From positions 1-64,000 of the forward strand of contig JAQGEQ010000283.1 in the NCBI GenBank assembly GCA_034620365.1: DNA of 64,000 bases. The letters run 5' to 3'. The DNA is from Pegea sp. RAD2-039 (taxonomy: Eukaryota; Chordata; Thaliacea; Salpida; Salpidae). The notes beneath the pieces were generated by a model. That model searched no databases and was not told the DNA's origin. It worked only from the letters and a program-made list of their open reading frames with translations. The translations under genes were made by a program, and so were the position numbers. Shown one piece after another: positions 8,804 to 63,803 of this stretch (position 1 is its first letter; each line of letters opens with the position of its first letter).

Positions 8804-9005
8804 TGTCTGTCTCCGTAGTGTAGCGGTTATCACATCCGCTTGACACGCGGAAGGTCTTAGTCTCGAGCCCAGACGGACATATCTTTGCGACAAGGAAAAT
8901 TCCATAAAAACCTAGGTAAAAGGGTCTTCGTGGTCTGGTTAACGACAACACTTCTAGGAGACGCAAAACTCCGAATTTAAATCCGGAGTTGGACCTTTGT
9001 AGGTC
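8804..9005 (+). mobile_element. tRNA-derived SINE, family 1, copy 2 (3' truncated)
   Basis: Head CTCCGTAGTGTAGCGGTTAT, anticodon-like TTGACACGCGG, box-B-like CTCGAGCCC, then the shared body ACAAGGAAAATTCCATAAAA...GACAACACTTCTAGGAGACG...TTGTAGGTC. It stops inside the body and runs directly into an LTR-like 3' fragment (9010-9108), so insertion, deletion or recombination joined the two. Confidence 0.75.
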
Positions 9006-25400: not shown

Positions 25401-25802
25401 TTAGTCTTTATCAAGTAATTCCTGCATTGATTTTACATCTTGAATTGCTTCTTGAATTTTTTCTTCAACTTTAGTTGCTTTACTATATAGATGATTAAAA
25501 TAGATTATATTATCTACATCTTTACCATCTATGTAGACTTTAACAGCAGAGCAGCTGGTTATTGAGCTTAAAACAGCGATGTATTCCGGGGCCTTTATTT
25601 TTCTTGCAAGATGCAATTGTCTAAGCTGATCTAGATCTTTAATTAGGTGTTCCATCACTGCAGACTTTAAATCATCTAACATATCTTCATTACGTCGACC
25701 TTTTGGTTGAAACTCTTCTGAGTGTATCTCCTCCAAAATGGTTATTATAAGCTTAACTGTATTTTTAAGTTCTTTTCTTGAATGAATAACATAGAAATCC
25801 AT
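25401..25802 (-). CDS. Small helical protein of unrecognised family, paralogue A
   Basis: A 133-aa single-exon protein, homologous over its length to the ORFs at 29902-30279 and 33363-33758. It has no signal peptide, membrane segment or zinc motif. Predicted character is all-helical and charged: an N-terminal amphipathic stretch (KNTVKLIITILEEIHSEEF), a GRRNE turn, a helix with KDLDQLRQL, the most conserved core (Y-x2-VLSS...AVKVYIDGKDVDNIIYFNHL), then a C-terminal EEKIQEAI helix. Cysteine is sparse. An upstream 3' splice site (TTTTTTAG, ending 25814) leaves 11 nt before the ATG, as in the other two members. I do not recognise the fold or function. Conservation among three copies argues that it is a real gene. 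Confidence 0.8.
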   Translation of the reverse strand: MDFYVIHSRKELKNTVKLIITILEEIHSEEFQPKGRRNEDMLDDLKSAVMEHLIKDLDQLRQLHLARKIKAPEYIAVLSSITSCSAVKVYIDGKDVDNIIYFNHLYSKATKVEEKIQEAIQDVKSMQELLDKD

Positions 25803-28800
25803 TTTCTAACTTTCTAAAAAATAATAAAGTGTTTAAACCATACATTTTACAGTTATGAGAAAAAGAACTTTTGAAATCAAACAATTTTAAACCTAGAATA
25901 CTAAGTAAAAATTGAAACAACTTATAAAATATCGAATTCATTTATAACATAACTGCTGAATATTTTTAATGAATAATAGTAACTGATGTATAAATATTGA
26001 TCAAACAAATTTAAATGCTTAAAGTTATACATTTATGTCTACAAACTATAAATATAAGTAATGCATATAGATATTTTAAAACTTCCATTGTAAATTTTAT
26101 TTTAAATCCATTTTAATAATTTCATTTAAATTTCAAGTAATAAATGTACAAAGTTTGGCTCATAATAAATAAAATATTCTTTTAAAATTAAAAACAAACT
26201 AAAACAAATTGATAAAAACATGTTTTCAAATAACTGATAAATTTTAAACTATTGATCTTATTGAGTTTATCAAATAAAGATGAAAATGTATTAACTTTTT
26301 GTAATAATCAATCTGTTTATTATATTAATTTAAATCAAATAAATATTTTAGTGTTGCATTGATGCTGAGAATGCTATAGATAATTTTTATATTTTATTTA
26401 TATGTAAACCGCTAGTATTAAAAAGTAGCTAGTAATGATTCATTTAGATTTTATAAAACATTTGTTTTATAAGATCATAATAGAAGTATTTACTGAAATT
26501 TATAAAATTGTTAACATCTATTATCTCACAGCTTGCAAATATTATTTGATTTCATCATACAAATGTAATCTTTTCTCATTTTACAAGTAAATATAAGCAT
26601 ATAAAGTTATAAATATAAATTTTAACTAACTTAATTGAAAACTTCAAAAATACTTTTATAATTTCCTAGCTATGCCTTATAGTAAAAGAATAAATTTACA
26701 ATATGCGAAAATAAGTTAAATAGATATTGAAGAAAGTTTACAAAATCTTTCATACACAATTTGATAAACGAAGTTATGAAATCACTTTTTCATGCGTATT
26801 TCTGTAGCTGCTAATTATAAAAGTGATCTCTGTGGAAATTTAATCACAAAAAGTGGAAGTTATATTATAAAAATATTATATACACAAAAAACAAATTTAC
26901 TTAGATATAAAGTTATTATTCAAAGTTAAAATTACAAAATTTGTTAACTAAAACAGTCAACTAAAACCTTTATTACAAGTTAGCTAAAAACTACTAATCT
27001 ATCAACTGCATCTTTCATTTTAACATTTTAGTTGAAACTTTTTTTTAATCTATTTCAGAGAATCTTTAGGTTTATATTTAGCTCGCATCTTGATAATTTT
27101 GATAGATAAGATCCAAATAAATATATCGAGATTAAGATCAGATAAATCTATTTTAGATTGATAACTCAGTAGCAATAACTTTTTTAAAATAAGTCAGTAG
27201 TTCTATCATTAGCTCTATAATAAATAAACTAATAAATTACATGAAGCTGAAATTCGAACTTAAACAATTTTATAAAATCAACTCACAAGTAAAGATGAGG
27301 TTATAATTATATAGAAAAATAAAGTACAACAAAAAGAATAGTTTTTAAATAATAAATTTTCTAATTATATTGCTTCAATAAATAATTATTACAATCTACT
27401 AAAAAACTATTCTCAATTACAAATTTGAAACAATAAGTACGCAATAAGAATTTAAGCAAAAAATATTTTAAGCAACATTAATTATTATATTATATGACAA
27501 AGTTACTATAACAGCTGTTCAAAATAAAACAAAGAGAGTTTGTAAATATTTTTGATTGTTATAAATTTCTTGTCTATTTACAAATATATTTTGATCTGTT
27601 AGAAAGATTGCAGAAGAATTATAAGCGTTTTTTAAACCACAGCAGAAAACAAAAACTTTCAACCTGCAATAAACTAAATATATTAGAGTGCTTACAGACT
27701 CACTTTGCATTCATGATAAAAAAGATTTTGTAGTCACTGGTCTTTAGCAGCGCATATCTAACAATTTAAGAAAGTATAAAGATTGCTCAAAAGTTTAAAC
27801 AGATAGTAAAGTTAAACATTGGTTTCTCGGATGAAATTTAAAAAAAAGTTGAAGTGTCAGATGAAAAATATAGTCAAATAGAAATAGCAACAGATACCCA
27901 AAACTGACAAAAATATTTGTAATTCAAATATTTATACTATTTGTTTATTACTATAAACCAAGTAAGTTCAAAAAGTTTAGTTTTTTCTTTGTCGCTGTTT
28001 TAAAGCAAATTGAAATAGTTAATAAAACATTGTTTTTTTTAACAGCTTCACCCATCAAACATAAATTTTATCTCATCTGGTCTATACACCTCTCACATAG
28101 TTGTATGATGGAATGCATAACAATTTAAACTATTGAGAGCTAAAAAGTTACAAAACTATTTCTAAAAATGTCAACAACAAAAGTACCAAATTGTAGGTGA
28201 TGGCATATCTGTAATAACAAGTAGCCAAAGAACTGATAAACATTTCAAAAAGCTGATATATTGATATAATTATTTTTTATAAAATTAATCATGTAAACAT
28301 AACTAATCAAAAACTTATTTAACATTTTTTGATACAAACAACTATATCAAAATTTATTATATTATTTAGTATTTATTGTAAAGTTTTTAAATTATTTTTT
28401 TTGTTAGATTTTTGTAAAACTCTGCCAATAACAAAAGCTATAAAACATATCAACACTACCTTATAGTTCTAAGCTGTATATTTCAACTAAAATCATTAAA
28501 AATTCTTCTTTTCATAACTTAGTGTTATAAAACATTGTGTAAATGAGTAAATGGAAGAAATAGAAGGAATAATATCTATATAAAGGAACATTTAAACCAT
28601 CAAAATATTCTACGAGAGAATTCTTCATTTAATTTACAAGCCTCTTTAAAATCAACCTTGTCTGAATCTTAGTTAGATAAATGTATTTATTTCCAGTATT
28701 ATTAATATTTATATCTTACAACATCATTTATATAGGATGATTCTGATGATTGGATTATATTCACTAGTCGGTTAATATCTTCGTATGATGTTTGTGGCAT

Positions 28801-29885
28801 GGTAGTTACTGGGAGATTTTAGTAGCAGAACTTTGCTAGTTAGATTTATTAAATAAGCAAAGAATTTTTTAAAAGATTCTCAATTTAATCTAAAATTTTG
28901 TTCAATTTTTAAAGTTAATATGGTAAAAAAATGTTAACAAATATTTTAATATGTTAAGTTTCGCGTATTTACTTTTTTTAAATAATTCTAACAATTTTTT
29001 AAACAGTTGGCAACTCATAATCAAACTTTTTTAAATTTTCTTCCAAGCTTATTTAAAGTTTCCTCTGTTACATTTTATGTAAAAGTGTAGTCATAAATTG
29101 TTTTTAGTTTTTTTTTTGAAAAATTATTAAATTGATGAAACTCTTATTTACAAAACGTAATATTATATATAACTATAAGATAGGAAATATCACAATATTC
29201 TAATGATAAAGTCAAATATTGCTTTAAATTTCTCAGTTATACAAAAAGTAGTTGCACAGGTATATTTAATTGTCAGAGATCATAGGTAGTATTAGATAAC
29301 TTTATTATTAGTATATCTAACTATAATTGTTGTAAGAATTTTGAATTTTCTTACTAATTGGGTATTATTTATTTATCATTAGTTTTATTATAATGTAAAC
29401 TTAGTTGTATTATAGTTTATTCTAGTTGGAATAATTAATTTAGATACTTAATATAATGTATGAATTTAAAATACCTTTAAAAAAGTGTAAACATTTAAAA
29501 GGTTACAGTTCAAATTTCTTAACCCAATATAGTTGATAATAATATTTTTATTGGCTAGAGTTATTCCCCTTTCATAAATATTAAAAAATTCTTGTAGTTG
29601 CAACTATTTATTGTGTTGAATGTTTTTAAACTTGGTGTATTTAAGAAGGATAAACTTTTTTAATTACATCTTATAAATAAATAAAAATTTGAATAATATA
29701 TTTATGTTTCATAAGGTTTTCATCTTCATCTCTTCAATTTTTCTATTTGAAATTAATAAAAGAGCATTATAGAAAGTATATAATGATACAACTTCGTTTT
29801 ATTTATATTAATTAAATATATAAGTTAATATATTTTTGCATTCTATAATCTTGAATAATTAAGATATTTCAAAATTTGGTTTTTA
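25803..29885. other. 4-kb AT-rich region between divergent paralogues A and B
   Basis: No recognised gene. A short minus-strand exon-like piece (28802 down to 28722) is the only coding-like signal and is treated as unproven. The rest is AT-rich with no repeat I can define. Confidence 0.4.
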
Positions 29886-29901
29886 GCTCGGATGGTATAA
29901 A

Positions 29902-30279
29902 ATGAGTTCCCTTGTTATCGAATTAAGAAGAGATCTTGAAGATGCAATTAAATCCATTATAGATTACTTAAAAGAAATAAAAAGTTTTTTTGAGCCAGTA
30001 GGTCGACGAAATGAAAATTATTTAGATGAAGTTTATTCAAGAACGATGCAAAAGTTAACAAATGATTTAGATGAGCTGAAAGACTTACTCTCTGGATCAA
30101 GAATCAGCTCTAGAGTTTATATGACTGTTTTGAATTCAGTTAGCAGCATACCTGCTGTTAAATCATATATAGATAGTAAAGATACCAATATAATCATCTA
30201 TTATAACTCTGCATATGACAAAGCAACCAAGGCTGAAGAAAAAATTCTAGAAGCAACTCGACTCGTTGAACTAATTTAA
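29902..30279 (+). CDS. Small helical protein of unrecognised family, paralogue B
   Basis: 125 aa in one exon. It aligns end to end with paralogue A: IKSIIDYLKEIKSFFEPVGRR, DLDELKDLL, VYMTVLNSVSSIPAVKSYID, IIYYNSAYDKATKAEEKI. It shares the GRRNE turn with A. It is slightly shorter because the C-terminal helix stops after LVELI. A 3' splice site (GGTTTTTAG, ending 29886) lies 15 nt before the ATG, so a non-coding exon or a trans-spliced leader probably precedes it. Transcribed away from A and in the same direction as C. Function unknown. Confidence 0.8.
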   Translation: MSSLVIELRRDLEDAIKSIIDYLKEIKSFFEPVGRRNENYLDEVYSRTMQKLTNDLDELKDLLSGSRISSRVYMTVLNSVSSIPAVKSYIDSKDTNIIIYYNSAYDKATKAEEKILEATRLVELI

Positions 30280-31465
30280 ACTTTACTTTGAATGACATTT
30301 TATTGTAATTAATATTTATGAAAATAAATAAATCAGCATTTTGCCAAAAATACCAATTTTCTTAATTAACTTTAGAAATATTATGATTTGTTAAAATCTT
30401 GCATGCCAATTCATTCATGCCCATCACAAACCAGTACTTACAGAAAATTAGCTCTAAATCATAATGAATTAAATAAGCTTATGGAAAAATTGTAAATTTT
30501 GTCTAAAAAATCAAAGAATGGTGAGGAACTAGTGATACAAAAAGCTAACAGATATGTCAAATATAAAATAAAGTTTTTTAATAATATTTTTTACATATTT
30601 TCTTCTAACTTGTATTACTGTTAATCTAGTATATACTCTAATAAACTTTCAGTAACTCGTAGTCATTTCTCATTCAGTATAATGGATTTATCTTTTTAAC
30701 AACTCTATTAAAATATTTATAATTGTAAAATTTTATAAATTACATTTTTGAACAATTTTATTCATACCAAATGTATTCTTAATTTCTTAGTCAAAAACAA
30801 TGTTTAACTCAGTATAAGTTTTATTTAAATATCCTATTTTAGTTAAAGAAATTATCCTATAGTCTATATTTTAACCATACTCAAATCTAAATGTATTATT
30901 TACCTAAAAGATATGTCTACAAATATACTTTACGTAATTGAATGCTATCGTACAAAACTGATGATTTGTATATTTTTTCGCTTGGCATTATAAAGACGTC
31001 TTTATAAACTCAATATTTAATCTTTTAGTTATAATTGATACACCGTTTTTCTTAGATAAATTTGAAATTTTAATCCTAATTTAAATATTAATTTAAAATT
31101 CGTCATAAGCTTTCAGGTGAGGATAAATATAGTTTGTTACTTTAGCTTATTTTCTAAGTGATCACTTATCAAACAAATATTATGTAATTTCTTAGAAAAT
31201 CTTGTAACAGACATTAACTAAATGATATTGAACACACAAAATCTTCAACAGTTAAGTAATATAAGTTTTCTTCGTTTGAGGCAAATATTTTATCATGTTT
31301 ATTTCACAATAATGAAGAATTTTATATAATTTTTCGATCAACTTGAATAGTCAAATTTTTAAATACAGAAATATGGCTAGTTTTAAAACATAAGGTATAT
31401 TTAGAATGAAAACAAGTTGTAATTCAAGTTACTTGGAATAGATATCTTTTATGTGGTATAAAATG
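30280..31465. other. Intergenic, nothing recognised
   Basis: AT-rich spacer after paralogue B. No gene or repeat identified. Confidence 0.4.
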
Positions 31466-31930
31466 GCTAAAACATGAGATGGGCTAGTGGTCAAGTCGAG
31501 CTGTTGATCAATTGTGCTTTGTAAGCTTGAATCCTACCTTTCCGACAAAGATAAGGTATTCTGCGTTTACCGCACATCAAGCGTAACAAGTATCTTTCCC
31601 AAATATGGGTGAATAGTGACTTGTTGCTTCGAGAGAATCGAATGCTATGGGAGTAAACTTAGATAAGATTTATACAATCTATTGACCTCAAACTCACTAT
31701 CTCAGGTCTTTGAGCCACGTCACCGAACAGTGGGCTTAAAGAGCGGAGATGGTTCAATGAACGCTACTCTCCATTACAGAAGCTAATGTTCATGTATGGG
31801 TGCAGTATGTAAACTCACATTTATCTCTAACAGTCTTATAGTGGCAGAAGATAAAATCAAGAAGCCAAAGGTACAATTCTGCTTATAGGTGGTTTAAGAT
31901 TTTCTGTTCGAGTCGTCTTCTACGTTCTCT
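31466..31930 (+). mobile_element. Possible third tRNA-derived SINE or repeat remnant
   Basis: A conspicuously less AT-rich island. Its start has a tRNA-like layout: GGGCTAGTGGTCAAGTCGAG (box-A-like) and, about 35 nt later, AAGCTTGAATCC (box-B-like). Unrelated sequence follows for about 400 nt with no open frame and no definite tail. It is not a match to SINE families 1 or 2. One copy only, so the call is tentative. Confidence 0.4.
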
Positions 31931-32126
31931 CGGAGATAATAGCATCTGGCAGCAAAAAGTAATGATTAAAGAGCTTTTGATAGAAGAAGAAAATTTATTT
32001 TAGAAAGTTGACTAGAAAATAATAATAACTGGACCACATAGTAAAACAAATCGCAAAAGCTTTCCAAGTTTTTAACCTGACAAGTCTGATGATAATTATA
32101 TTAAATGCGTTTTAATACTTTAATCA

Positions 32127-32436
32127 GAAAAAATAACATGCTTCGGCCGAAATCAGTTATGCTGTGAGCCAGAGAATAAGTTGAGGGGATTCAGATGTTG
32201 CTCATAGATGCGTCCTGTTGGCGTCACAGGAGTCCTCAGTACGATACTGAGTACAATAGTGAACTGCCTACGGGGCCCAAGCTCCGGCATTACTTCTAGA
32301 TTTTTTCGTTTCCTGTGATGTCGATGACCAGACTAACAAGGCCCTTTAAACTTTTTTTATCGCAAATGTGTGACCGCTTGGGCTCGAACTAGATTCGTGT
32401 TAAACGGATGCGATTAAACCTACGAAGGTGAACTCC
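32127..32436 (-). mobile_element. tRNA-derived SINE, family 1, copy 4
   Basis: On the minus strand: a decayed head (TTCGTAGGTTTAATCGCATC, TTAACACG, GTTCGAGCCC), then GGGCCTTGTTAGTCTGGTCA, GACATCACAGGAAACG, CCCCGTAGGCAGTTCA, TACTCAGTATCGTACTGA. The shared end CTGATTTCGGCCGAAGCATG with a TATTTTTTC tail closes it. The order is identical to copies 1 and 3, with more point differences, so this looks like an older insertion. Confidence 0.75.
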
Positions 32437-33354
32437 TCAAATTCTTTATTAAATCGAGGTTATTGTTTAAATGGTAGTGCTTGGGATAGATGAACAAAAA
32501 CTCGGCTGCTCACGATACTAAAAGAGGTAATTAGTTCGGGTCGATGAGTTTATTTGCTGTTTAAATAGATAAGTAAATGCAATTATACAAAAAGTAGGAA
32601 ATTTCGAATTTCATTTACATTCGAAATTATTATGAATGTTAAAACAGAGTTTACTAATCTAAGTTTTATTGGTTTGGCTTTAATAGTCATTACATCTGCG
32701 TTATAGTCTTTCTTTATGCATTTTGTAATAACTTTGCAAGTTATAAAAATTTAATGTTTTCAGTAAAACTTAGCAGTATCCAAATCAAGCTTTTATCTGT
32801 TAGTTTGTATTCAAAGTTTATAACTTAATCGAAAACTTTTTTATTCTCTTTATTATTTTTTTAATACTATTTTTAGCTATTTCTTATGTTAGAGTGAAGA
32901 TTTAAGTTTTTTTTTAAGTTTCTGGTACAATTTTATAACTTTCTAAGTATGTCTATATGATAAGAAAACATTTAGTAAAATCTATAGAAAATTTATTTGT
33001 TTTTTTTAAGTGAATGATTTATAATATTTATAACAATTGTAATTATAATAACTTAAGTCAATTTATAAATCCAAATATTGGATAGGTTTGCATAAAAAAT
33101 TGTATTAAAAAAACTATTTTAAAAATTACTTAGATCAAAAACTATTAAATAAAATATCTTATCCGAATAACCCAATAACCAGTATTTAAATAAGATTAAG
33201 CATCTAAATTGTTATTAAAAAGTTAGTGTAAGGGTTAGTTTCTCATTTTATAGAAATTAAGTTTCAAAATTTACAGAACTATTTGATATCAAATAAAAAT
33301 ATTTGTCATGAATTAAGTAGTTGCTGTATTTTTAATAATTTATTTCTATTTTAG
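32437..33354. other. Intergenic, promoter side of paralogue C
   Basis: AT-rich; nothing recognised apart from the splice acceptor at 33353-33354. Confidence 0.4.
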
Positions 33355-33362
33355 ATATCAAG

Positions 33363-33758
33363 ATGAATTTAGAGGTCCATGAAGCTTATGAAAATCTTAA
33401 AAGTTCAATTTCTTTGATCATTAGGTATCTGGAAGATATTAAATTACTTGAGTTCCGAAAAAAATACGATGAAGGTTGTACGAATCAATTGTATATAGAA
33501 ACTAGAAAATACCTCTCTGATGATATAAGTCAGTTGAAAAAGTTGATAAGATCAAGTAAATTACCTCCTACTACTTACAAAGTTGTTTTAAACTCAACAG
33601 CTAGCTATGCTGCTGTTAGATTTTACATTGATAAAAAGAATGTTGATGAAATTATCTATTCTAACCCTCTGTACAATACAGCAACAACAGTGGGAGAAAA
33701 GATTAAAGAAGCACTTTCAATTGTGGATGTAATTGAACAGTGTCATGATGATAAATAA
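33363..33758 (+). CDS. Small helical protein of unrecognised family, paralogue C
   Basis: 131 aa, single exon, the most divergent of the three. It retains the pattern L-K-x2-I-x-LIIRYLEDIK, KYLSDDISQLKKLI, TYKVVLNSTASYAAVRFYID, VDEIIYSNPLYNTATTVGEK and the closing KIKEAL helix. The GRRNE turn of A and B is absent (KKYDEG instead). The 3' splice site TATTTTAG (ending 33354) is 8 nt before the ATG. No targeting signal is seen. The strongest shared core, (V)LxSxxSxxAVxxYIDxKxVDxIIYxNxxYxxAT, defines the family. Function unknown. Confidence 0.78.
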   Translation: MNLEVHEAYENLKSSISLIIRYLEDIKLLEFRKKYDEGCTNQLYIETRKYLSDDISQLKKLIRSSKLPPTTYKVVLNSTASYAAVRFYIDKKNVDEIIYSNPLYNTATTVGEKIKEALSIVDVIEQCHDDK

Positions 33759-44462: not shown

Positions 44463-45544
44463 AAATTGTTTCAAAAAATTCTTCTTTATTTCATTTTAGT
44501 AATAAATTATAAAACCCTTAATATTGTGATTGAAACAAAATAATCTACAAACAGTATTTAGGCCTTGACAATTATAAAAAAACTGGCCACAGTATATGTA
44601 ATTGATAAACTTATTATCAAACTATTTAGTAAGTACCGTGAAGTTACTTTATTTTATGATATTTTATTTACTATTGTTTTAAAGAATAAATATAAAAACT
44701 TCAAAATTGTGTAGATTAGAAATATATGAATATTACAAAACAGTATATTTATATACATAATATAATTTTCCAAATTATTTTGATGAAATTCATTAAATAG
44801 TTTCAAGTAGATCTAGAAATTTACGAGGTATATAAAGCTTAATATCAGCTGATTTATTTGTTATTAGTGAGTTTTAAGACATTTTTACAGAGATGAATTC
44901 AACTATTTTTATAGTAGTCTAAACTTTATTTACTTTTTATTATGAGCTTTTAGAAAAGTACGTATCATCAATAAACTTTTGCAATTTATAAAATAGACAA
45001 CTATTCAGTATCTTTCGAACGTAGTAACTGAGATTTATTTGTAAGATAGTGTTTTCTTCATTTAAATTTTTCTGGTAAAGTTTGCTTTTTGACAAAAGAG
45101 AATTATTGGTTGTATGATGTAAGATAGCATTACCTTACCGCTCGAGTAAATGTCAGTTGAAAGCAGGTATACCCGCGCTTACTTCTTTGTATGTTTTTTT
45201 GTGGTCTGTAGTTGGATTATTCGATGTTACTATCGAAGTAAAATTTATACAAGATTAAAGCTCTCTTTCAAAGTTATTTTTGATACGCGTTTCAAGCCAC
45301 CTGTTTATATTCGCAAAATTCGCAGCTACCTCGTACACATTTAAATAATTTCTTATGAGTAGATACATTTTAGTAAGAATTCATGGCTTTTTATAAAATA
45401 GCTAATTTTAATATCGCCAATAGTTAAAACAGAAACTTTATCATCAGTATTGAAATCAAGATTTCTTTAAACAACTCAGTAGATATCATATATAGCTGCT
45501 GCGTTGTATAACTTTATAATACATGTAACTTTAGGTCCGCAAGT
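44463..45544. other. Intergenic, with a possible LTR-like fragment
   Basis: AT-rich. 45190-45285 (GTCTGTAGTTGGATTATTCG ... GATTAAAGCTCTCTTTCAAAG) distantly resembles the end of the gypsy LTRs at 8.7 and 35.4 kb. The 64-codon frame at 45150-45344 overlaps this and is probably chance. A 3' splice site (ACTTTAG, ending 45534) precedes the next gene. Confidence 0.4.
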
Positions 45545-46075
45545 ATGAAGTGTACTAGAAATGGTGTTTGTTTATTTCGAGTTATTGTAGTTGGAGACAA
45601 AGGAGTTGGTAAATCCTCGATTATTAGACGATATTTTGATGGTGACTTTAAAAGAACTTTTGATCCAACCCTTTGTCCCACAACAGTGACTAAAAGAAAA
45701 GCTTATAAGCAAGAAAACGTTTCTATCTTATTTCAAGAGTGGTCCCCTAGCTTTAAGTCTAAAATTCCTAGTGCTATGGCTTTTGATGCAGCTGTGGTTG
45801 TGTTTGATGTAACAAATCCAAAAAGTTTTGAAAATGCAGCAAAATGGGAAAATATAATTCGAGAAAAATTGAATACAAAAATTAAAACAATGTTAATTGC
45901 AAATAAATCAGATAGTGATGAAAGACTTGTAACAGAAGTTAATTCAAAGTTTTTAGCAAAGAGAAGGAAGCTACTTTATCGTGAAGTAAGTGCTAAAAGC
46001 GGGGAAAATATCCAAGAAGCTTTCGATAAACTTCTTAACTTGTATATATCTAAAATGACAGAAACAAAAAGATGA
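45545..46075 (+). CDS. Divergent Rab-like small GTPase without G3 or prenylation motif
   Basis: 176 aa in one exon. The Ras/Rab fold is clear: G1 P-loop GDKGVGKSS (residues 17-25), a hydrophobic strand FDAAVVVFDVTNPKSF typical of Rabs (80-95), G4 NKSD (120-123) and G5 SAK (149-151). The G3 switch II motif (WDTAGQE in Rabs) is replaced by FQEWSPSFKS (63-72), so the catalytic Gln and the Asp/Gly that contact Mg and the gamma-phosphate are gone. The C-terminus is SKMTETKR, with no cysteine for geranylgeranylation. It may bind nucleotide without hydrolysing it, or be a rapidly evolving retrocopy. It has no introns, unlike most genes here. A splice acceptor 10 nt before the ATG suggests a spliced leader exon. 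The frame is intact, so it is probably expressed. Confidence 0.82.
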   Translation: MKCTRNGVCLFRVIVVGDKGVGKSSIIRRYFDGDFKRTFDPTLCPTTVTKRKAYKQENVSILFQEWSPSFKSKIPSAMAFDAAVVVFDVTNPKSFENAAKWENIIREKLNTKIKTMLIANKSDSDERLVTEVNSKFLAKRRKLLYREVSAKSGENIQEAFDKLLNLYISKMTETKR

Positions 46076-53300: not shown

Positions 53301-54142
53301 TGACAAAACAGTTTTATAAAATTAGCTTTATTTGATCTTATTTGTTTTTAATTCAATTTTGCAAAAATAAATATGTATCTATTCTTTTAAAAAGAATTCA
53401 AATTTTTCTTTATTGAATTAATCACACAAAGTATTAAATTGTTAAACATTAAATTAACTTGTTAAATAATCTATGTATTAACTAAAACCATATTTAAACT
53501 AAAACTAAAAAGATAAATTAGAAACTTTTTCATTTACCGTCTCACGCCTTGAAATCCTTTCACTTTTTTTTCATCTCCGGCGTCTAGATCCCAAATCTGT
53601 ACTTGCAAAGCACAGCTAGCAATATCCGATCTATTGATTCGAAATTCGAATGATTCATTCCATTCAGGATTAAGGTTCGATTGCTGGATCGAAGTCGTCT
53701 TAACTGGATACGAGCTTCTAAACCCAGATTTTGTAAACGGTTCATAATTTGTATTGCGGGCAACAGAAAGAACACAATAAGGATCAGAAGTGCCATCTAC
53801 ATCTTTTCCAGCTAAATTTTCAGCTCGAATAACTGTTACTTTCAAGCGACATTCTTCAGCAAGCTTTAAGTCTCTAAGCTGATCAATAGCAACTTTATGT
53901 TCGATATCACTTGCTCCAAACAAACGTTGAATGAAATGGTTTAGTTGAGTTTGGTTACGTCCATTCATCCGATTATCAATTCTATTTGCTACCGTTTGTA
54001 AGGAAGTCATATAAAGAGTATTTTTAAACTCATTTTTCTCTAATAAATCACTAGGTTTGTATCCTTCGTATATATCAGTTGGTGCTATTTGACTAGAATT
54101 TAGTAAACTTTTTCGTATAGCAGTTTTTCTTTTTGGCAGCAT
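47392..54142 (-). CDS. Munc13-4/BAIAP3-type vesicle priming factor (C2-MHD1-MHD2-C2)
   Basis: Calcium-dependent SNARE-priming factor for exocytosis. About 19 exons: 54142-53538, 53070-52941, 52677-52549, 51873-51739, 51486-~51277, 51160-50926, 50867-50667, 50475-50356, 50303-~50094, 49931-49725, 49661-49595, 49527-49400, 49259-49080, 48918-48806, 48513-48354, 48302-48136, 48085-47840, 47781-47709, 47655-47392; about 1,190 aa. The N-terminal C2 has calcium-loop acids (AGKDVDGTSDPY, WDLDAGDEKK). MHD1 is marked by KAVDVDKMSRIDEIVKHSSS AVD and WPDP, MHD2 by RLIASQAVKPLMIYL...FVRVLECLW. The second C2 has LALDLNGSSDPFV and YDHDIFGKNDLEGE. No C1 or calmodulin-binding region precedes the first C2, which fits UNC13D/BAIAP3 rather than UNC13A-C. 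Phase does not close at the junction 50094/49931 (one base off), and the exon ending near 51277 is approximate. Confidence 0.88.
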
Positions 54143-57064
54143 ATTTATTGGCCTTTAAATTGAATTTTTATTAATAAGTAGCCTGAATGTAATCAAAATA
54201 ATTTAAATATCTTAAAAACTTCTATTTTAATCTAAAAATTATCACTAATAAAAATGTTACAATAGTAAATTACACGAACTGGAGTTTACAAAAATTAACA
54301 AAGTAGTAAAAGCTAACAGGTAACTTTTTTGTAACAATATTTGGTAATTAAAAAATGTATAACAAAATATTACCAAGAAATAAAAATTTCGATATTCAGT
54401 AAATAATTTCCCCAATAATTTTATAAAACTTTCAGACACCGTTTTAATCATCATATGACGTAATAATTGTCTAATAACGTTTATGGGTTTATATATATAT
54501 GGTTTAAACGATCAAACTATAATTAGTATTTTCCGTTTAATGTATAATTGTTAACTGTTAGGTATAAAAACTTTTGTGTATACGTTAAAACTGCTAAATA
54601 AAAACAAATACATGTTATTTTATAATGTTTCCTTATATGTCAAAATTAAGTAAAATTAAATTTATATTTAGATGATTAAAACAACCTTAAAAATTACAAA
54701 TAAAGTCACACATGATTGATAGATAATATTAAAAGTAATACTGCAATGAGCTATTTAACAAAAAACACAAATATTAAAGAACTTTAAACTTTATTTTACT
54801 CAAGTTTTTCATTGAAATAAATATTTGCAAATATTATATTTCTAATAATAATTTTAAACAATAGGCTCAAGAAGTCTGAATTATTTTTTTGGTTTACTTA
54901 AATGTAGTGCAAAACTAATAGTTTAACTAAGTAAATATTGACTCATTAGTTTGTTTCCCCAGAATTTTAAAGCTGTTTTTAATACTTACTTAAGCTCACA
55001 AAACTTATTATGATAATTTAAAAGTAAATTTAAAAGACATTTTAGCATATCTTAAAACTGATAAATTATACTTGTAATTTATAATTCAATATCTATTACA
55101 CTTTTATCTTTTAAAGCATTTGCATTGATAAAAGAGATAAACAATATTTTGTTTCAGATCACATAAAACTTATTGCAGGTTTTTAAGCAATATATATACT
55201 TTCAAAAGATAAGCTACTTAAGTTTTCAGCTAAATGTTTACTTTAGCTCAATAAATTGAATATCTATGCTTTATAACTGACTGTAAAAACTTGTTAAACT
55301 CGATAATTACTTTTGATTATGTTGTATACTTCTTTGTGAAACTTTTGTTAAAAATCTAATAACAGCAGTACTATGCTATCAAATGACTTATACAAACAGA
55401 TGGAATGATTTATATATGGCTTAAAAGCTCTTCTATCAATTATACTTTTAAAAAAAGAAGTGACTTATTTCCTTCTAGCCTACTACGTACATACAGTGCC
55501 CTAGAAAACCAATAGCACGTAGTTCCGTCCTTTAGACTCAGATATTGAAGTCTGAATATACATAATAAACAAATTTACTTCCATATCCTAATTTAAATAA
55601 AATCTTATTCAAACTCGAATTAACTTCTGATGAACTGCCTTAGCTTTAGCTTAAAAAACTTGGACTTTTAATAATCAAGTTTTAAACATTTAAAAACTTT
55701 TAATAAACAAACCATTTGCAGCCATCGCAAATATTTGAATAAAATATAGTGGAAGCTGAGTTTTGTATCTCAAACTTGTTTTTCTTTCTTCTCTCGTTTT
55801 TAAATCAAATTCTCTTTCATAAATTTCCCAAAGGTACAATTAAGATAAATAAACTATAATGTTGACATCATTTATGTAAAAACTAAAGTTTTGCTTAATT
55901 AAAGATCTTAGCCAATTATATTAGTAAATAATTTTAAAATGAAAAAAAGAAATGTTTAATAAACAAAAAATCTCAGCTTAAATATTTTCTAATGTTAACC
56001 GAATAATTAATTGATCATACTTAATTAGTTAAAATGATTAATCATAATAAATATAAGTTTTTAGTATAAAAAAACATATAAATGAATTTTCAGCAAACAT
56101 AACAAAGCACTTTTCATGGTAATTTATATACTTTTATAAAGAATTAAAAGATTTTATAGAAAATTGTAAACTTGCTTTCTTTAAAAATGTCGATTTGAGT
56201 TGTTTTTGAAAAATGAGTTAAACAACTTTACATTGTTTAATTATTGAATAAAATTGAATACAGTAGAGATTGCAACATAAAAAATTACGACGTAAAAAGT
56301 TACACCAATTCAAAGCATCCTGATGATAGAAATAGAAGTTTACATAAAATCTGTTTCCTTTAGAATTTGTTGACAAATTTGATTTGGAAAATTGTTTTTA
56401 CATATCAATAAATTTTGTTATTATTTCTTATTTTGATTTCTAATCGTTTATATTTCAATAATTTTTGAAAACAAATAGGCAAAACGGTTTAAAATATAAC
56501 TATCAAAATAATTTAGAGAGTTTTCTGTCAGTTATAAAGTTAAGACTGTTCAAACTTGTGAGTTCTTAATATTATGTTTTCTGCTTTCTTGAAAATGCTG
56601 TAAAGTTTTCGATCTGGCTACATTGCTTAACTTTACTGATTTATGTATTAAACTAAAAAAACTAGCCAAGTTGGTTTAGTTAGAAATAAGCCTTGAAATC
56701 AGAAACGACAGTAACGTACTTAGCAATAAAAACTTTGAATTCTATCTCTGTGTATCTGATTATTTTATTTAAGATTTAAAATTTCACAATTTAATTTATT
56801 AAGCTGCAAAAAAGTAAAGTTCTGCAATATTTCAGCCTGTATGGTGATTGCAGTTTAAAAAAGAAGTTGAAACAAAAGATAACAATTGCGTTTCGAGTTT
56901 GATAAGACCAAATCTATAGATTATTCAGTGCAAAAAGTAATATGAGTAGTTGAAAGTTGTACAAGCTGAAGCTAAACGAACAAGTACTAAAGTGTTGCAC
57001 CTAAATTTCACAAATAAATTACAAAATGATATAAGAAGTTGTAATTGATTTGTTCGTGAAGTTG
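54143..57064. other. 2.9-kb intergenic region, nothing recognised
   Basis: Upstream of the Munc13-type gene and downstream of BCKDHB (both on the minus strand). AT-rich throughout. A less AT-rich patch near 55480-55560 may be an old repeat but matches nothing else here. Confidence 0.4.
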
Positions 57065-61762: not shown

Positions 61763-63292
61763 TCACAAAAATGCTTTCATATAAAAGGCATGAGGTGAGG
61801 TAGCAACTTCAGAATTCAAATTTTCTTTAAAAAAATTCACAATATGATATTGATTTTGAAAGCCACATTTATCATAAATCGATAAAGCTGGACTATTAAC
61901 AGAAACATGAAGCGAAACAACTTTGTCATTCGACATTCTCATCAAATTGTATAACATGAACTTTCCTATTCCAGCATTTCTCCACTCTGGACGAACAAAA
62001 AAGTACGAAATGTAATTTTCTCCTTTCTTATGATCAGGTATCATCAGTGCAAACCCAATAATCAGCTTTTTATATAAGGCTACCACAGTATAATCTGGAT
62101 ATTCCAGATATTCTATGACATTCTCAATTTGTTTAAAAAACTTTCGGCACAGGCAATTGATGGTTGGTACATGGTGAGGTTTCAGGTAACAGTAATCAAT
62201 AGAATCTGTCGATAGTGTTGAAGAATAATCACAATTTGAAGCTGATTGATGTTTCTTCATTCGAATTTGCTGAAGAGTTGCTAGCATTGGAGGTTTACTT
62301 TCAAAATCTTGCCATATAAAAGGTCGCAGTTCACGTCCAGTGTAGGGACTAACAACAGCTTTGAATCGTTCTTTGCTTTCTAGACCAACAGTGATGAGTA
62401 AAGTTTCTTGAAATTCTTGGGAATCAAGGTAGAATGGAACTTGTAAAAGATTTGAAAAATGTTTTCTTGGACGTTTTTTCATTTGACGCTTTCTCTTTGA
62501 AGGGGCATGTTTGGTTACTTTCATTTCGTCAAATGGTTTCTGTTTAGGAACTGATTCTTCTTTAGCTGCATGTTTCTTGAAACTATTCTCACTTTTTTTT
62601 AAAGAGTATTTAGACACATTGATAGTTGGTAGTTTTCGGGACCTCTGATTTTCATCCTCATTTTCCTCTGACATTCCATCACTTTCAGAGGTCTCTTTAT
62701 ACACAGATAAATTATTTGTTATACAAGAAACATCAACTGAACCAGAATTTTCGTTTTGGCTCGTTTCAAATTCTGCAGACTTTGTTTCATGAGATGGTTC
62801 AAAACATGGAGAGCCAGCATCATCCTTAACTCTCCACCAGCCTTCTTCTTTCAAAACCTGACGACCATTCATGAATAAACAACTTGCAGAATTTAAAGCT
62901 TCTTTTAAAAAGTCCAAAAATTGATATTCTTCAGTTGCTGTTGGATCCATCTCAGGAAAAAATGAAAGAAGATTAGATCTAACAAAATCTTGAATATCAG
63001 TTTCTAGTTCATAAAAACCCATGTTTCCAAGTTGAGATTGTCTCATATTACATAAAGCCAGATGAGCTATTTTTACCCAAGATAGCTTTTGACGATTGAT
63101 TACTTCCTTTTTAGGAGAACAAAAATAACATTCGAAGTCAAAGTAATTATCATAATGGACCTGAGACGGATTGCCTACTCTTATACAGCACTCATGTACT
63201 ATATTTTTGCATTTCATGCAATGAAAAACAGTAACCCCATCTTCCTTACAATGGCAGTACCGGCATCTTCTTTCTTCTGATGTCATATTCAT
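61763..63292 (-). CDS. KAT14: KAT14 (CSRP2BP), GNAT acetyltransferase of the ATAC complex
   Basis: Scaffold/acetyltransferase subunit of the ATAC histone acetylation complex, nuclear. 509 aa in a single coding exon (human 782 aa, many exons). An N-terminal PHD-like zinc module has C10, C13, C25, C28, H33, C36, C55 and C58. The family-specific block LSWVKIAHLALCNM follows, with GWWRVK near residue 150. A long charged disordered linker has basic runs (KHAPSKRKRQMKKRPRKHF), likely nuclear signals. The conserved VSPYTGRELRPFIWQDFES KPP leads into the C-terminal GNAT domain: IDYCYLKPHHVPTINCLC, YPDYTVVALYKKLIIGFALM, FVRPEWRNAGIGKFMLYNLM (acetyl-CoA loop R-N-A-G-I-G) and LHVSVNSPALSIYDKCGF. A strong donor (GTAGAG|GTAAGT at 63725/63724) upstream suggests a 5' UTR exon. 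Confidence 0.95.
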   Translation of the reverse strand: MNMTSEERRCRYCHCKEDGVTVFHCMKCKNIVHECCIRVGNPSQVHYDNYFDFECYFCSPKKEVINRQKLSWVKIAHLALCNMRQSQLGNMGFYELETDIQDFVRSNLLSFFPEMDPTATEEYQFLDFLKEALNSASCLFMNGRQVLKEEGWWRVKDDAGSPCFEPSHETKSAEFETSQNENSGSVDVSCITNNLSVYKETSESDGMSEENEDENQRSRKLPTINVSKYSLKKSENSFKKHAAKEESVPKQKPFDEMKVTKHAPSKRKRQMKKRPRKHFSNLLQVPFYLDSQEFQETLLITVGLESKERFKAVVSPYTGRELRPFIWQDFESKPPMLATLQQIRMKKHQSASNCDYSSTLSTDSIDYCYLKPHHVPTINCLCRKFFKQIENVIEYLEYPDYTVVALYKKLIIGFALMIPDHKKGENYISYFFVRPEWRNAGIGKFMLYNLMRMSNDKVVSLHVSVNSPALSIYDKCGFQNQYHIVNFFKENLNSEVATSPHAFYMKAFL

Positions 63293-63803
63293 AATAGAGA
63301 CCTTATCATTAATTTATTAAGTTACAAATAAGATACACTTTGAAATTAAAATAAAAGTTTCATTTTCTTACTAATAAATATAAAATAGTTGTTAGGCTTG
63401 TAAGAAAAAATAGCTTAATCTTAAAAATAACAACTATTCTAATTTCTAGTTATATTTAATTATATTATTCAGTATTTTTTGAAATATTAAGAACAAATAA
63501 TTGCTACAAAAACATCTTGAATTAAAAATCAATACTTTATTAATGGTTTAAACATATATATATATACATCTTCCTCTCTTTATAATAAATTATTATCCAA
63601 CCTATAATTATAAAAGTTATATATATAATATAATTTATTTATAACACACAATAGATTGAATATAATATATCTTATGAAATTAAATGTCATAAAAGTAAAA
63701 TAAATTTGAAAAGATTATACTTACCTCTACAGTGTTGCTATTTTTCTACATTATCTAGGTTAAACTATGATACTTAAGACTATTCAATGATTTTTCTGAA
63801 GTC
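63293..63803 (-). promoter_or_regulatory. KAT14 5' leader region with probable 5' UTR intron
   Basis: A consensus 5' splice site, GAG|GTAAGTAT (exon end 63725), has a candidate acceptor GATAAG ending at about 63301, just before the KAT14 ATG (63292). This suggests an untranslated first exon at roughly 63726-63800 and a 420-nt intron. The region is otherwise AT-rich. Confidence 0.45.

Follow-up and report, generated by a model that had tools for sequence, protein, structure and literature searches.

The first 64,000 nucleotides of contig JAQGEQ010000283.1 of the salpid Pegea sp. RAD2-039 (assembly GCA_034620365.1, forward strand), referred to here as the window, carry three related genes encoding small helical proteins. 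These genes belong to a multigene family with at least 11 intact members on six contigs, accompanied by a probable remnant. The family is undescribed as far as the libraries searched show, these being without animal sequence collections. On the reading that we favour, and to which we give not quite an even chance, its members would be soluble, probably intracellular four-helix-bundle proteins, for which we infer a role as non-enzymatic binding or adaptor modules.

An earlier note on this DNA had reported three open reading frames of 125-133 residues aligning end to end, and they are present as described. Member 1 (w25; 25401-25802, minus strand) has 133 residues, member 2 (w29; 29902-30279, plus strand) 125 and member 3 (w33; 33363-33758, plus strand) 131. 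Each is a single coding exon, and each is recovered by a profile from which it had been left out, with E-values of 8e-31, 2.8e-22 and 4e-22, respectively. Identities are 47% between members 1 and 2, 37% between 1 and 3, and 38% between 2 and 3. In this DNA of 27% G+C (mean of 32 rows), where 125 stop-to-stop frames reach 60 residues, the three are among the 11 of at least 125 residues. By hydropathy, the only criterion used, the family shows neither a clear signal peptide nor a clear membrane segment (10-residue N-terminal hydropathy 0.40-1.65); the earlier note had seen no targeting signals in the three proteins.

The same note placed a splice acceptor 8-15 nt before each start codon. Acceptor-like AG dinucleotides are indeed found 11 nt upstream of the ATG in member 1 (25814-25815, minus strand), 15 nt in member 2 (29885-29886, plus strand) and 8 nt in member 3 (33353-33354, plus strand). 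The pyrimidine tract of member 2 is weak, however, and falls under the count threshold. The criterion was a [CT]AG after a pyrimidine-rich stretch, at most 30 nt from the ATG, with 1949 window ATGs as controls. At a pyrimidine content of at least 64%, such a site precedes 8 of the 11 family members, against 406 of the 1949 controls; the members under this threshold are w29, C4 and C236 (the last two outside the window). At 70% the counts are 6/11 and 222/1949, and at 78% they are 5/11 and 85/1949. For Brachionus plicatilis, a conserved spliced leader is reported to be absent (PMC1925144); were the genome from that group, these acceptors would mark the ends of ordinary 5′UTR introns.

The idea of a local three-copy family was not sustained when the genome to which the window belongs, 105.7 Mb in 387 contigs, was searched. 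Member 2 as a query revealed a fourth close copy at C80:386242-386640, and this copy together with distant matches led to seven further intact copies. These are located at C4:198655, at C236:246634, at C106:102245 (minus strand) and at four places on contig C1 (members C1a to C1d): 5810382 (minus strand), 2509123 (minus strand) and a same-strand tandem pair at 4396621 and 4398466, the latter being C1c. All eight copies outside the window have a single intact frame, of 133-150 residues, and leave-one-out profiles recover 11/11 members. Nine members served as queries (w29, C80, w33, C4, C236, C106, C1c, C1d and C1b, thus all except w25 and C1a), the last two, C1d and C1b, yielding no additional intact member in the genome. 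Since the search scored only the best candidates, further members may exist. A segment at C115:146789-146956 is a probable decayed copy: its similarity is to the C-terminal, conserved portion of the proteins (E 0.056 with the C1b query, 2.7 with C4), and in-frame stops lie upstream. The C106 query also gave weak matches (E 2.05-3.68) to one frame present in four near-identical copies (L042-L045, on contigs C250, C249, C7 and C18), which is probably a transposon.

Member 1 is 49% identical to the C80 copy. Because this relative is no more distant than the window copies are from one another, a simple local triplication is not established. The duplicated and strongly diverged character that had been ascribed to this helical family is supported. 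The mixed orientation had been taken as a sign of rearrangement after duplication: one copy is inverted, and the rearrangement step would be a deduction from this. Further, the 66 nt upstream of the ATG align between member 1 and the C80 copy with a score reached by none of 1000 shuffles, and the surroundings of the acceptor-like AG are similar in the two copies. At least this pair was therefore copied as DNA, including the would-be intron end. When the upstream strips of all 55 member pairs were aligned, there were four pairs for which no more than 4 of 200 shuffles equalled or exceeded the score of the true sequences. In blastn comparisons of the loci (about 1.5 kb per side, and 8 kb pieces for the window), similarity is confined to the genes and to that 5′ strip, besides a few matches of 25-98 nt.

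The members look like real, protein-coding genes. Nine pairs, each above 35% identity, were measured for the ratio of nonsynonymous to synonymous substitution (dN/dS) by the Nei-Gojobori method (NG86), as the earlier note had suggested. The ratio is below 1 in eight of them, the ninth (C1b/C1c) having no computable dS, so that nothing in these pairs points to positive selection. The closest pair, C4/C1a (75% amino acid identity), gives 0.14; its two sequences differ by 0.15, 0.13 and 0.37 at the first, second and third codon positions, respectively. The ratio is 0.33 for w25/C80, 0.48 for w29/C80 and 0.35 for C4/C1b; the one obtained for C1a/C1b is meaningless owing to saturated dS. Among the window copies, the ratios are 0.54, 0.63 and 0.58, at dS of 0.8-1.1 and thus near saturation. 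The YN00 method, which returned estimates for two of the nine pairs, gives 0.35 for w25/w29 and 0.35 for w29/C80. For the window copies, stronger evidence than dN/dS is provided by the open frames themselves. When member 1 was left to drift at random in simulations, a difference of 21% came with a mean of 5.2 stops, and 0.4% of 2000 runs stayed stop-free; at 37% difference, the mean was 7.8 stops and no run of 2000 was stop-free. Against this expectation, the frame is open in 11/11 members.

Structure prediction gave four-helix models. The AlphaFold model of member 2 has a mean predicted local distance difference test score (pLDDT) of 86.6, and the same predicted order of four helices is seen in two models taken from two branches of the family. 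From column conservation over the 11 members and the secondary structure of the model, the most conserved part corresponds to residues 82-115 of member 2 (30145-30246, plus strand). It contains the YID...N motif and runs from the end of helix 3 through a short helix into the start of helix 4. The mean top-residue share, used as the measure of conservation, peaks where helix 3 ends (0.63) and has its minimum in the loop that joins helices 1 and 2 (0.32). Charged or asparagine residues common to at least 7 of the 11 members are K27, D55, K87, D91, D94, N102 and E112 (member 2 numbering). No histidine or cysteine is common to as many members, and w29 and C80 contain no cysteine at all.

Considering these properties, the following scheme may be envisaged for a family of binding or adaptor modules. 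Old duplication, which for at least one pair copied DNA, would have spread the family, and the genes would have been kept protein-coding while the copies diverged. Regularly spaced hydrophobic residues would hold the core of the bundle, whereas the end of helix 3, the short helix and the start of helix 4, with K87, D91, D94, N102 and E112, would dock on a partner. The copies may then have specialised through change outside the docking region. Several observations weigh against this scheme. Constraint on the window copies is poorly measured, their ratios of 0.54-0.63 having been obtained at dS of 0.8-1.1; the dN/dS test is also weak for them because w29 and w33 show no excess of differences at position 3 over position 1 (0.50, 0.41 and 0.48 at positions 1 to 3). 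One of the five models of member 2 is poor (43.3), and the two branch models, built on partly the same alignments, were compared by helix order only, rather than superposed. Finally, since D91 and N102 sit at helix ends, part of the conservation may be structural helix capping. Another possibility, which we consider real though somewhat doubtful, is that the family was born within one animal lineage as a four-helix fold variant of its own, its dozen or so diverging copies regulating some lineage-specific trait.

The sequence collections searched comprised phage, viral, prokaryotic and plasmid sequences, the window's own genome and the PDB. No convincing match to the members was found in Pfam (best E 0.0071, with nothing near the cut-off for the three window members), NCBIfam, PHROGs (best E 0.0067), PADLOC (a single match, E 0.032) or PDB sequences (best E 0.041; phmmer of member 2 gave none better than E 0.1). 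The Pfam table holds 18 families for the 11 members at E <=10, the filters dropping most matches above about 0.1. No relative was found in viral_contigs and genome_contigs with four close copies as queries, in phages with member 2 or in plasmids with C1a, and no BFVD structure matched the first model at E <=0.001. The strongest match among the library searches is that of C1c to the archaeal arcadin-4 in NCBIfam (E 0.00019). It scores 19.7 bits against a cut-off of 860, concerns one member of 11 (residues 9-118, over part of a 747-position profile) and was taken as chance or a general resemblance between helices. No paper among those listed by the literature searches deals with such a family, though the searches were broad and prove little. 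Within these libraries, the absence of a named family is thus borne out.

Among explanations starting from known proteins, an action like that of the plant inhibitors of pectin methylesterase and invertase (PMEI), in which a four-helix bundle docks on an enzyme and blocks it, appears improbable. Their fold (e.g. PDB 1x8z and 1rj4) is the top match of both models, at a Z score usual for helical models, and PMEI is not one of the 18 families in the Pfam table (E <=10).

An origin by domestication of a viral or transposon gene, whether coat, matrix or accessory, is just as improbable. In its favour, the members are small single-exon genes for helical proteins and are dispersed over six contigs, and a dispersed repeat sits between copies 2 and 3. 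However, the genes seen by eye in the flanks of C80 and of C1b/C1c are apparent host genes, DNA similarity keeps to the genes and one pair's pre-ATG strip apart from the short matches, and neither the viral, phage and plasmid searches (queried with one protein or four close copies) nor BFVD returned a relative. Flanks beyond 1.5 kb were read for C80, C1b/C1c and C4, those of C1a, C1d, C106 and C236 being left out. The neighbours of C80 are presumably P450-like and sulfotransferase-like exons, and those of C1b/C1c exons that we take to be ribosomal protein L3-like, small-Tim-like and glutamyl-tRNA synthetase-like; the C4 flanks show no gene recognisable by eye. These neighbours offer no functional clue. 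The repeat (31440-32560) is richer in G+C and has pieces 68-80% identical at no fewer than 39 other places (among the best 40 of 86 candidates). Being dispersed and containing, by eye, a tRNA-like stretch resembling A and B boxes near 31482-31535, it is labelled as similar to a short interspersed nuclear element.

Even less probable is a diverged relationship to the Mediator subunit Med10, with its two long helices, YID..(N/D)(P/V) turn and last long helix. Med10 was chosen by eye on account of a YIDxGxNP motif, and the E-values are uncorrected for this choice. With hhalign, the family scores 20.8 against four Med10 rows (E 0.009, 78 columns), a value reached by none of 100 column permutations (highest 15.9). 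C1d alone scores 22.8 (E 0.004, 33 columns), a score of 21.5 is obtained with the seven members that do not belong to the window group, and NP follows YID in C1c and C1d as in Med10. However, over the same core columns, 35 circular shifts of the family score up to 18.6 (median 18.4), the unshifted family scoring 18.4; the highest score is 18.1 for Med10 reversed and shifted (66 shifts) and 15.9 for the reversed family (70). Thus, a short motif rather than the whole chain makes the score. Further, the window group alone scores 11.8, the family against the genome's own Med10 alone gives E 0.03 and a probability of 1.7%, and Med10 is absent from the 18 Pfam families listed. Membership was rejected on the shift controls, Med10 being kept as a weak rival. 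BAG-like Hsp70-binding co-chaperones are the least probable of all: in the PDB profile search, BAG1 chains come fourth and fifth, at a non-significant E of 0.9 and 1.1, BAG is absent from the same 18 families, and the BAG domain has three helices, against four in the family models. The TFIIS-N/LEDGF-IBD fold, considered by eye as BAG was, is absent among the 50 fold matches listed per model, which excludes nothing.

The rest of the window holds Ras, C2, GNAT, AAA, DnaJ, trypsin and other ordinary domains, among them a Ras-family GTPase (45512-46072, plus strand), a C2-domain exon (53537-54154, minus strand) and a GNAT acetyltransferase exon (61766-63313, minus strand). A stretch at 8809-8881 (plus strand), matched by the Rfam tRNA model at 35.8 bits and not called by ARAGORN, may be a tRNA-derived repeat. 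Elsewhere in the genome, no telomere repeat was seen at the first ends of 20 contigs.

Compared with known systems, the family shares with the PMEI fold a predicted four-helix bundle and a similar length, and differs in its 4-11% identity. Plant PMEI and invertase inhibitors are secreted and disulfide-bonded, whereas the family has no clear signal peptide by hydropathy and no shared cysteines. With Med10 it has in common a similar helix order, by sequence, and the YID turn, in a local profile resemblance; the motif accounts for this resemblance, which stays within the range of the shift controls, and the Med10 profile (PF09748) finds a single locus in the genome, the separate canonical Med10 on C29. 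If transcripts confirmed the genes, they would add to the known proteins an undescribed family that has clear bounds and confident models and could serve in studies of the origin and divergence of small helical proteins; alone, the family answers no long-standing question. It is ordinary in kind, such gene families being common. As a general notion, it resembles the lineage-restricted multigene families of small proteins in animals by its several diverged, single-coding-exon copies under constraint, by its probable decayed copy and by having no named homologues in the libraries searched here.
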